64,000 nt of DNA from Chloracidobacterium sp. N (GTDB lineage Bacteria > Acidobacteriota > Blastocatellia > Chloracidobacteriales > Chloracidobacteriaceae), in assembly GCF_018304765.1 (NCBI RefSeq), contig NZ_CP072643.1:496001-560000 (forward strand), written 5' to 3'. Positions within the stretch are counted from its first letter, which is position 1, and each line of letters starts with the position of its first letter. Below the pieces are notes generated by a model. That model did no database searches. It saw nothing but the letters and a program-made list of their open reading frames with translations, and had not been told where the DNA came from. Positions 3,464 to 62,153 of this stretch are shown piece after piece. The translations under genes were made by a program, and so were the position numbers.

Positions 3464-4228
3464 ATGGCATTGCGTTCTGGTCTTGTGAAAGCCGTGGCGA
3501 CGCTTTCCCTCTTTGCCGGGATGGGCATCAGTTCGTCTCTGGTGGCGACGGCGCAGGGGGCGCTTCAGGCGAACCCGGTGGTGTTGGTTGTCACCCTGGG
3601 CGCGCTGGCGCTGGCTCCGTTTGCGCTCATCATGATGACCTCGTTCGTCAAAATCTCGGTTGTCCTTTCCATCCTCAGAAACGCGCTGGGCACGCAGCAG
3701 GTGCCGCCCAACCAGGTTATCACCGGGATTTCGCTCATTCTGACGATATTCATCATGGCGCCTGTCGCTGAGAAAATGCTGGAGGAAGCCGGCCTGTCGG
3801 ACGCCACCGCGCCGGTTTTCACGGAAATGCGGGCGGATACGCTGTTCAAGGCGCTGGACAAGGGCAAGGAGCCACTCCGTGCCTTTCTCGAACGCAATGC
3901 CCACGAGGCTGACCGCCGCCTGTTTCTGGGGCTGGCCCAGCGTCTGGCGCAGAAAAACGGCAAGGACCCGAATGCCATTACGGTACGGGATTTCCGCGTC
4001 GTCGTGCCGGCGTTTGTCACCAGCCAGTTGACCGAGGCGTTTCAGATTGGCTTCCTGCTGTTCATTCCCTTCCTCGTCATTGACATGCTCGTGTCGAACA
4101 TCCTGCAGGCGATGGGGATGTTCATGCTGTCGCCGACGATGATTTCCCTGCCTTTCAAACTGCTGCTCTTTGTGCTGGTCAAAGGCTGGGTGACGCTCAT
4201 CCAGAATCTCGTGCTCAGCTATGCCTGA
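3464..4228 (+). CDS. type III export gate protein SctR/FliP
   Basis: 254 residues, typical for FliP/SctR, with a hydrophobic leader (FAGMGISSSLVATAQ), then four membrane segments. The signature MMTSFVKISVVLSILRNALG, followed by QQVPPNQV, is nearer to injectisome SctR (TSFVKI...LRNALG) than to flagellar FliP (TSFTRI...LRQALG). The C-terminal block SQLTEAFQIGFLLFIPFLVI is shared by both. The protein forms the core of the export pore with SctS and SctT. Start ATG at 3464 follows GAGGCGCGG. The stop codon lies inside a 19-bp tandem duplication. Confidence 0.9.
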   Translation: MALRSGLVKAVATLSLFAGMGISSSLVATAQGALQANPVVLVVTLGALALAPFALIMMTSFVKISVVLSILRNALGTQQVPPNQVITGISLILTIFIMAPVAEKMLEEAGLSDATAPVFTEMRADTLFKALDKGKEPLRAFLERNAHEADRRLFLGLAQRLAQKNGKDPNAITVRDFRVVVPAFVTSQLTEAFQIGFLLFIPFLVIDMLVSNILQAMGMFMLSPTMISLPFKLLLFVLVKGWVTLIQNLVLSYA

Positions 4229-4257
4229 CGGCTTCGTGTATGCCTGACGGCTTCGTG
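4220..4257. repeat. 19-bp perfect tandem duplication at the sctR stop
   Basis: TATGCCTGACGGCTTCGTG occurs twice in immediate succession. The first copy contains the sctR/fliP stop codon. The second pads the gap to the next gene. It looks like a recent local slippage duplication. Confidence 0.9.
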
Positions 4258-4618: not shown

Positions 4619-5326
4619 ATGCGGTATGACCCTGAAAGGCATCACCGCCGTTCAATCCGCCTGAAGGGCTACGATTACACCCGGATGGGGGCGTATTTTG
4701 TCACCCTCTGCACGCAGGGGCGGGTGTGTCTGTTTGGGGAGATCATGGCGGGTGAAATGCGGTTGAATGCGTACGGGGAAATTGTTGCCGAATCCTGGCG
4801 GTGGCTGGCGACGCAATACGATTATGTGGAATTGGACGAATGGGTGGTCATGCCCAACCACCTGCACGGAATCATCGTGATCACGGGCGATGGCCGGGGC
4901 GGTTCCGGCGGCACGGACGGTTCCGATGGCAGGGGCGGTGATGATGTTGCGGACGGTTTTGATGTTACGGGCGGTTCGCATGGTAGGGGCGGTTCGCATG
5001 GTAGGGGCGGTTCGCGAACCGCCCCTACCACCATGGCACCGACCGCCGCACCAACCACCCCCACCACGCCGACCGTTCCTGCGGGAAAACGCAAACCCCT
5101 CGGCCGTTTGATCGGCGCATTCAAAACGGTATCCACCAAACGCATCAACGATCGCCGTGGCACGCCCGGCGCAACCGTCTGGCAACGCAATTATTACGAA
5201 CACATCATCCGCCACGCGGAATCCCTCAACCGCATCCGCGCCTACATCCTGAATAACCCCCTTCAATGGCATCTGGATCACGAACACGCGCCGGCAACCG
5301 ACGCTCCCCCGTGGGCGGACGAATGA
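4619..5326 (+). CDS. REP-associated tyrosine transposase (RAYT, Y1 family) with a repeat-derived insert
   Basis: From the ATG at 4619 the protein has 235 residues. An upstream GTG at 4562 would add 19 residues without family similarity. Y1-transposase marks are YFVTLCTQGRVCLFG, the metal-binding histidine pair in VVMPNHLHGIIV, and RAYILNNPLQWH with the likely catalytic tyrosine. RAYTs nick single-stranded DNA at cognate REP palindromes. Between the histidine motif and the C-terminal helices lies a Gly/Arg/Ser- then Thr/Pro-rich insert (roughly residues 92-160) encoded by degenerate GGGGCGGTTC repeats and one perfect palindrome. The insert is translated in frame, so the gene may still be functional. 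Confidence 0.88.
   Translation: MRYDPERHHRRSIRLKGYDYTRMGAYFVTLCTQGRVCLFGEIMAGEMRLNAYGEIVAESWRWLATQYDYVELDEWVVMPNHLHGIIVITGDGRGGSGGTDGSDGRGGDDVADGFDVTGGSHGRGGSHGRGGSRTAPTTMAPTAAPTTPTTPTVPAGKRKPLGRLIGAFKTVSTKRINDRRGTPGATVWQRNYYEHIIRHAESLNRIRAYILNNPLQWHLDHEHAPATDAPPWADE
4899..5030. repeat. in-gene array of GGGGCGGTTC-type repeats ending in a 32-nt perfect palindrome (4999-5030)
   Basis: Several degenerate copies of a GGGGCGGTTC unit run head to tail. The last two direct copies are ATGGTAGGGGCGGTTCGC (starting near 4980 and 4998). The second meets an inverted copy, GCGAACCGCCCCTAC, so 4999-5030 is perfectly self-complementary. The layout is that of a REP palindrome. The same GTAGGGGC(A)GGTT arm occurs in the intergenic palindromes at 61981 and 62125. 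Confidence 0.85.
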
Positions 5327-61980: not shown

Positions 61981-62010
61981 GTGGGGGCAGGTTCCCAAAC
62001 CTGCCCCTAC
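61981..62010. repeat. REP-like palindrome, first copy
   Basis: GTGGGGGCAGGTT and its near-complement AACCTGCCCCTAC flank a 4-base centre (CCCA). One mismatch lies in the arms. It follows the cation ATPase stop by 21 bases. Confidence 0.8.
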
Positions 62011-62124: not shown

Positions 62125-62153
62125 GTAGGGGCAGGTTTTGAACCTGCCCCTAC
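62125..62153. repeat. REP-like palindrome, second copy
   Basis: GTAGGGGCAGGTT and AACCTGCCCCTAC form perfect 13-base arms around a 3-base centre. Degenerate half-copies lie between it and the first copy (near 62041 and 62100). The arm resembles the repeat inside the RAYT gene at 4.9-5.03 kb. It lies 44 bases beyond the bchU stop and could act as an mRNA end. Confidence 0.85.

Follow-up and report, generated by a model that had tools for sequence, protein, structure and literature searches.

A RAYT gene of Chloracidobacterium with an in-frame REP, and a helix that predicts the REP half-site among its relatives

Introduction

TnpAREP genes that carry a REP within their own coding sequence have been described before. 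According to Quentin 2018 (PMC6006769), genes of TnpAREP subclass 2.4 contain REPs that are inserted with the reading frame kept, generally between the HuH motif and the Y, and double-foot REPs are described in the same article. It also equates subclass 2.4 with RAYT group 4 of Bertels 2017, and in its account the insertion of subclass 2.4 lies where helix aB ends, remote from the projected DNA surface. In the portions of the article drawn on here, subclass 2.4 alone is described as having frequent internal REPs, and some members of another small subclass also have one. Intragenic REPs are reported from other genes as well (PMC3733652).

Several studies bear on how such enzymes and their repeats are matched. 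Co-evolution of RAYTs and REPs at the level of trees was proposed in 2010 (PMC2817692). For the TnpAREP of E. coli, K82 of the DNA-binding helix a3 is reported to contact C27, a bulged base in the REP (PMC8266576), and the structure 4er8 holds a REP transposase in complex with a REP hairpin. The 2021 SELEX study that reports the C27 contact names the recognition of perfect-palindrome REPs by RAYTs, in its case those of group 3, as an open question (PMC8266576).

Here we examine a gene in a 64,000-nt stretch of the genome of Chloracidobacterium sp. N. This whole stretch is called the window, and positions refer to it unless a contig (C1 or C2) is named. An in-frame REP in a RAYT gene is an already published class feature, to which the window gene adds a member. 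Genes that contain their own target also offer an opportunity, in that sequence alone suffices to deduce a recognition rule, which can afterwards be put to the test.

A RAYT gene with its own palindrome

The features of the gene are collected in Table 1. Its frame is open from either start with zero internal stops (ORF analysis), and the product has a Y1 HuH fold with both the HuH motif and the Y---NP motif (PNHLH and YILNNP) expected of a RAYT, or TnpAREP; by family motif, Tyr209 is the putative catalytic residue. Pfam Y1_Tnp is matched above threshold (24.7 bits, cut-off 23). The NCBIfam model NF047646 REP_Tyr_transpos (REP-associated tyrosine transposase) is matched below its curated cut-off of 80, with 64.3 bits in two stretches, and the match is probably split by the linker. 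An AlphaFold2 model built from 27 sequences (mean pLDDT 75) contains a helix at residues 51-66, strands at 70-77 and 81-88, a low-confidence linker, and a helix at 161-180. Its best structural match is 4er8 (Z 13.2, rmsd 2.8 over 126 residues); the IS608 transposase, at Z 12.9, counts as a tie with 4er8 in this comparison. Assignment to the IS200/IS605 transposases was rejected, as these require a Y---Q motif and the window gene has YILNNP. The original prediction that the ORF encodes a RAYT is upheld by its motifs, by the Y1_Tnp score, and by 4er8 as top fold match, tied with IS608 transposase.

Table 1. Positions in the window of the RAYT gene and of the features within it
Feature	Positions	Strand	Basis
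RAYT / TnpAREP gene	4619..5326	+	ORF; 235 aa from ATG 4619, GTG 4562 alternative start
Block replaced relative to congener, residues ~54-172, proposed specificity cassette	4778..5134	+	40-column identity profile, four-fold sites
End of helix aB and turn, residues 59-69, second co-varying patch	4793..4825	+	Mutual-information scan, sister-pair test, helix 51-66
HuH motif PNHLH, residues 79-83	4853..4867	+	Sequence motif
Variable linker, residues 89-159, probably disordered	4883..5095	+	Low pLDDT over most, varying length
18-nt tandem array, degenerate left REP arms	4888..5013	+	Tandem Repeats Finder and sequence
In-gene double-foot REP, GTAGGGGC-GGTTCG arm twice	5001..5028	.	Inside 32-nt palindrome 4999-5030
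aC motif, residues 160-178 (PLGRLIGAFKTVSTKRIND), best half-site predictor	5096..5152	+	Prediction tests; helix 161-180 in model
WQRNYYE (from residue 188) to Tyr209 (YILNNP)	5180..5245	+	Invariant columns

The palindrome is perfect, with two 16-nt arms and no loop, and it is read through in frame without a stop, as had been claimed; it proves to be a GTAG-tagged REP. In 1000 codon shuffles of the window gene the longest loopless arm was 10 nt. Tandem Repeats Finder reports 7.0 copies of the 18-nt unit with 75% matches, and the left arm of the palindrome is identical to the adjoining unit. The degenerate repeats noted earlier are degenerate arms of the gene's own REP, and both array and palindrome lie, as predicted, between the HuH motif and the WQRNYYE/Tyr209 region. 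The linker that contains them is probably disordered, because the model gives pLDDT below 50 at residues 93-113, 117-143 and 150-152, that is, over most of the stretch; this agrees with the disorder first proposed.

The window gene resembles subclass 2.4 in its WQ motif, its YIxNNP motif, its variable insertion between b3 and aC, and its double-foot REP in frame between HuH and Y. It differs at the HuH motif, for which the subclass table lists NH[IFV]H and where the window gene has NHLH. The remaining features are also found in relatives that have NHVH, NHIH and NHFH, and we read NHLH as variation within the group, which nonetheless lowers any claim of strict subclass 2.4 membership. A further difference is that a scan of both flanks with the double-foot pattern found no double-foot REP within 1.5 kb of the gene. 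The E. coli TnpAREP (4er8; group 2) shares the fold, and its helix a3 should, judged by position, be the counterpart of aC. Its REPs are bulged and have a single GTAG foot, unlike the perfect double-foot REP of the window gene. Rickettsia palindromic elements and other intragenic REPs likewise place palindromic repeats in frame in protein genes; according to PMC3733652 their hosts are mostly unrelated genes, whereas the repeat in the window gene sits in the gene of its own enzyme.

Few cognate REPs in the same genome

A large population of cognate REPs in the own genome was sought by exact-copy and double-foot searches and rejected. The double-foot pattern GTAGGGGC-N4-30-GCCCCTAC has 10 matches there, of which two overlap inside the window gene; the word GGTTCG is absent from the other eight, the nearest being GGTTGA at C1:1503472. 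The 11-mer GGGGCGGTTCG occurs 13 times, three of these within the window gene. One outside copy belongs to a single-foot REP with GGTTCG (C1:2058735, L355) that has 12/14 pairs, and the remaining nine outside copies are not REP-like. Genome-wide abundance of the repeat thus failed to appear, with one further copy of the word found. The activity of the window gene is weakly supported, because its own genome has one other found REP of its word and this is single-foot; with so small a REP population, the gene may be recently acquired or inactive.

This genome has one other RAYT match (L012, C1:623436-624229). At the equivalent linker site it, too, has an array of 18-nt units together with a palindrome (GGGGCGGGTTCTGAACCCGCCCC), and downstream of the palindrome the reading frame is broken. 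Three of the other eight double-foot REPs are of an AGGT type (C2 558125, 720353 and 807945), and by sequence they appear close to the prediction from the aC of this second RAYT. Palindromes of the AGGTT type also occur in the window at 61981-62010 and 62125-62153, fitting the second, broken RAYT and not the window gene. Elsewhere, at C2:14787-14905 (L013), four REP-like units (GTAGGGGCGGGTT) are spaced by 30 nt, and the last is near a full palindrome.

In-gene REPs among the relatives

Relatives were collected from one contig scan with the window protein as query for set 1, from which the best 80 of 484 related stretches were taken, and from added loci in cyanobacteria, Chloroflexi, Nitrospirae and Bacteroidota, also best-scoring matches, with phylum names from record titles. 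Bacteroidota apart, the collection came to 222 non-redundant genes including the window gene, a sample of best matches and not a census. For set 1, the 92 genes with clean ORFs were reduced to 68 that have at least 12 of 14 positions paired, single-foot and weak REPs being dropped. The 178 loci L140-L317 comprised 16 with no clean ORF, 5 with no aC, 46 with no REP, 44 with a weak REP and 67 with a REP. Removal of near-duplicates left 45 of the 67, among them one with a 5-nt half-site that was kept for prediction and dropped from column scans. From 30 Bacteroidota loci, 28 were usable, 25 were non-redundant and 20 were scored. The held-out set includes RAYTs from set-1 genomes, de-duplicated at 0.9, and the predictor was fixed beforehand on set 1.

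Among the matches listed, 111 of 222 genes have a double-foot REP (at least 12/14 pairs) in the linker. The supposition that the in-gene REP is an unusual feature does not survive this count of genes with one at the equivalent site, nor the description of the class in 2018. In 152/222 genes the palindrome in the linker exceeds those of all 20 codon shuffles, compared with 9/222 for a control stretch of equal length upstream of HuH in the N-terminal part. The distance from HuH to W ranges from 40 to 366 residues across the 222 genes. The largest value belongs to L020, where the segment consists mostly of short tandem repeats around a GCAGCG REP and the frame stays open.

Conservation of the insert in distant RAYTs, as an ordinary domain would show, is seen at the DNA level in one group of relatives and fails at the protein level. 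In the 17 GGTTCG genes, a group chosen by its word, the 28-mer is 0.97 identical versus 0.32 at four-fold sites. Among genes with a window-like aC (score at least 0.70, n = 22 including the window gene), the exact 28-mer occurs in 12 and all are within 5 mismatches; among those with an unlike aC (score below 0.5, n = 177) none comes within 3 mismatches and the closest has 4, intermediate scores being uncounted. Conservation of the peptide was considered and rejected: GACCGG is in frame 0 in 4 genes and in frame 1 in 4, and ACGGCA in 5 and 2. The conservation of the insert does not point to a protein domain, because some words are translated in two frames across genes.

Extra REP arms are present in 30 of the 111 genes with an in-gene REP. 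They keep the polarity of the palindrome, with 21 left arms on the 5' side, 32 right arms on the 3' side, and one of each in the opposite position. This suggests, from sequence, that arrays grow outward from the palindrome, and the choice of the best palindrome may favor the count. RAYTs with a TMTT-type aC (L024, L092, L306, L310 and similar genes) have single-foot, looped REPs of the AGACC/CAC type, and it seems likely that they are a second recognition class. Several of the single-foot or weak REPs that were dropped look type-specific too, an example being a TMTT-type aC with AGACCT-like arms. Two small genomes, G066 and G092, hold 198 and 159 double-foot REPs; in G092, which has two RAYT matches, several different words are found among the places listed.

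Helix aC predicts the half-site

Each 14-nt REP arm has six variable bases, nt 9-14 following GTAGGGGC, which we call the half-site. A shared palindrome goes with a shared following helix across genes, a regularity first noticed by eye. In a leave-one-out nearest-neighbor test on the 68 set-1 genes, the 19 residues of aC predicted 5.06 of 6 bases, compared with 3.82 for the N-terminal 90 residues, 3.16 for the C-terminal 40 residues and 2.58 for random pairs. The partial Mantel correlation was 0.52 in set 1, the largest of 500 permutations being 0.13.

The same relationship holds in the 65 held-out genes, for which the 68 set-1 genes were the sole training data. Here aC predicted 5.03 of 6 bases and was exact in 30/65, the N-terminal domain predicted 3.38 (10/65 exact) and the C-terminus 2.69 (5/65 exact); the best of 2000 permutations reached 2.89. 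Gene by gene, aC outdid the N-terminus 40 times, fell short of it 8 times and equalled it 17 times. In the Bacteroidota alone (n = 20) the values were 4.65 for aC, 2.95 for the N-terminus and 2.75 for the C-terminus. As a predictor of the six variable arm bases, aC far outperforms the rest of the protein. No published report of a residue-to-REP rule or of a cassette swap was found in literature searches that covered mainly the main text of open-access articles, and neither is among the subclass 2.4 features given in the portions of PMC6006769 used here.

REPs that flank the genes give a related picture. Such REPs, 72 in all, accompany 39 other genes; 59 of them agree with the in-gene word at 5-6 of 6 bases, and the mean match of 4.93/6 compares with a permuted value of 2.55 (maximum 3.25). 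The main support for the in-gene REP as the cognate repeat thus comes from relatives. For 14 genes that lack a good in-gene double-foot REP, a set that includes weak or single-foot in-gene REPs such as that of L078, aC predicts the flanking REPs at 3.50 versus 1.99 when permuted (4/5000 permutations as high), with all 111 genes used for training. Prediction from the N-terminus gives 2.71 (103/5000 permutations as high) and from the C-terminus 1.93 (3325/5000). One such case is L153, which has a GSFKS helix, no internal REP, and a GAGGCA REP upstream; the GSFKS helix of L054 and L085 accompanies GACGCA. An internal double-foot REP is not required, because there are many genes without one.

Two patches of residues carry the signal

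A mutual-information scan over aligned columns of the 111 genes (effective number 85) gave its strongest signals at aC residues 163, 166 and 162 and in the patch at the end of aB, which surfaced without being sought. Residues 59-69 and 160-174 are the standout patches in the column scan, and the 2018 insertion at the end of aB probably includes the first of these. Several pairings are tight: Gly at 162 with G at nt 9 (66/66), Arg at 163 with T at nt 11 (19/19) and Glu with G (15/15), Gly at 166 with C at nt 13 (39/41), Arg at 67 with G at nt 14 (51/51), and Leu at 63 with T at nt 12 (37/37). Others are loose, such as Pro at 162, which goes with A at nt 9 in 20 genes and G in 9, or Ala at 163, which goes with C at nt 11 in 20, A in 15 and G in 3. 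When single-residue rules were learned on 67 set-1 genes and checked on 44 held-out genes, residue 163 gave nt 9, 10, 11 and 13 at 0.93, 0.80, 0.75 and 0.82, against baselines of 0.73, 0.34, 0.18 and 0.50. Weaker results were obtained for nt 12 from the best set-1 column (0.61 versus 0.50) and for nt 14 from residue 67 (0.77 versus 0.55). A 100-degree helical periodicity was not significant in either helix, with 739/5000 shuffles as high for aB and 1003/5000 for aC.

Linkage was controlled for by arranging 110 genes into 55 disjoint sister pairs according to identity outside the block. The mean correlation with half-site agreement was 0.41 for aC and 0.32 for the end of aB, and it was 0.07 for columns 71-88, 0.17 for 175-187, -0.07 for 1-53 and 0.09 for 188 onward. 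Columns 71-88 fall below the aB patch (Mann-Whitney p 0.0005) and above columns 1-53 (p 0.0014), and columns 175-187 fall below aC (p 0.0012); the columns in these tests are not independent. Distance alone fails to explain this pattern, since columns 71-88 sit between the aB patch and the REP. Three columns of the C-terminal tail (223, 225 and 228) have r of 0.42-0.43, which is at odds with the picture of two patches.

The middle of the gene differs in a congener

The congener locus L019 is the orthologous site. The ORF upstream of the window gene, which we take to be fliQ-like, is identical there at 270/270 positions, and the downstream stretch is 90.6% identical. An exact 19-nt tandem duplication lies at 4220-4257 in the window, at the end of the ORF that precedes the fliQ-like one, and the alignment to L019 has 19 gap columns at this place. 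Within the RAYT gene, 155 of 273 aligned columns agree over 4780-5133, with many gaps, and identity is about 95% in the parts of the gene that adjoin this segment to left and right. The share of unchanged four-fold sites is 24/24 before the block, 4/13 inside and 26/27 after. The replaced block takes in the aB patch, the REP, and aC through residue 172; the window gene has GGTTCG as its REP word and LGRLIGAFKTVSTK as its aC, and the congener has GACCGG and LASFVAGFKSAVTK.

Similar mosaics are found elsewhere. In 6 of 13 sister pairs, hand-picked among the closest, the DNA of the patches is less identical than both flanks by at least 0.20, as in L053/L170 (N 0.79, patches 0.44, C 0.85); five pairs have no dip, and two of the 13 have no or almost no N-terminal data. 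From these alignments we read the middle of the gene as a putative exchangeable specificity cassette with its own target.

Discussion

We consider it likely that the window gene is a TnpAREP of the subclass 2.4 type whose middle third is an exchangeable specificity cassette that includes a copy of the cognate REP. The cassette would consist of the end of aB, the HuH strand, the disordered linker with its REP copy, and helix aC. A REP would have entered the linker by the enzyme's own activity and would persist there as the linker tolerates insertion. Homologous recombination at the conserved flanks could then carry cassettes from gene to gene, and a swap would let the enzyme change its target and its label in one step. 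Both aC and the end of aB would contact the REP stem, aC mainly at nt 9-13 and the aB end mainly at nt 12-14. With somewhat less assurance, we favor the view that in such self-labelled enzymes residues 162, 163, 166, 167 and 170 of aC and 63, 66 and 67 at the end of aB set the six variable stem bases, with label and block exchanged as one cassette. By analogy, aC fits the role of a reading helix, because E. coli a3, its counterpart by position, contacts REP base C27. A role of the aB end in DNA contact would conflict with the 2018 view of an insertion away from the DNA.

Other explanations must be weighed against this one. The association may be partly due to linkage, because both patches move together with the REP as a single block. 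Taken to its limit, linkage would make the REP a neutral passenger of a recombining block, tracking aB and aC by co-inheritance and unread by the protein. The movement of the block as a unit is what such co-inheritance calls for, and so is the stronger association of columns 71-88 than of 1-53 (p 0.0014), yet columns 71-88, nearer the REP than the aB patch is, associate less than that patch (p 0.0005), and columns 175-187 associate less than aC (p 0.0012; columns not independent in either test). The outside REPs of genes without a good internal double-foot REP also follow aC and not the C-terminus, and the single-residue rules learned on set 1 carry over to held-out genes (nt 11 from residue 163, 0.75 versus 0.18), which together lead us to regard linkage alone as unlikely.

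A hairpin kept as a site where the enzyme binds its own gene or mRNA, thereby limiting its own expression, would account for a DNA word that is 0.97 conserved versus 0.32 at four-fold sites in the 17 GGTTCG genes (a group chosen by word). The 111 of 222 genes with no double-foot REP at the site speak against such autoregulation, for which the case is made from sequence, and we think it quite improbable. Replication slippage, giving an ordinary low-complexity linker and the palindrome as a by-product, might be proposed from the 18-nt array and from the additional arms in 30/111 genes. Slippage is nevertheless scarcely credible given a palindrome arm of 16 versus a maximum of 10 in codon shuffles, site palindromes that beat all 20 shuffles in 152/222 genes versus 9/222 in the control, and an in-gene word that matches REPs outside the gene.

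The specificity cassette with its cognate REP remains the preferred reading. The earlier idea of a RAYT that has absorbed its cognate REP stands in part, in that the observation and the cognate link are supported and the abundance of the repeat and its unusualness are not. If the cassette model is true, a RAYT can change its target without losing its cognate repeat. Genomes would then reveal predicted targets for many enzymes, and retargeting would be open to design and testing. The predicted target of each such enzyme may be readable directly from its gene.
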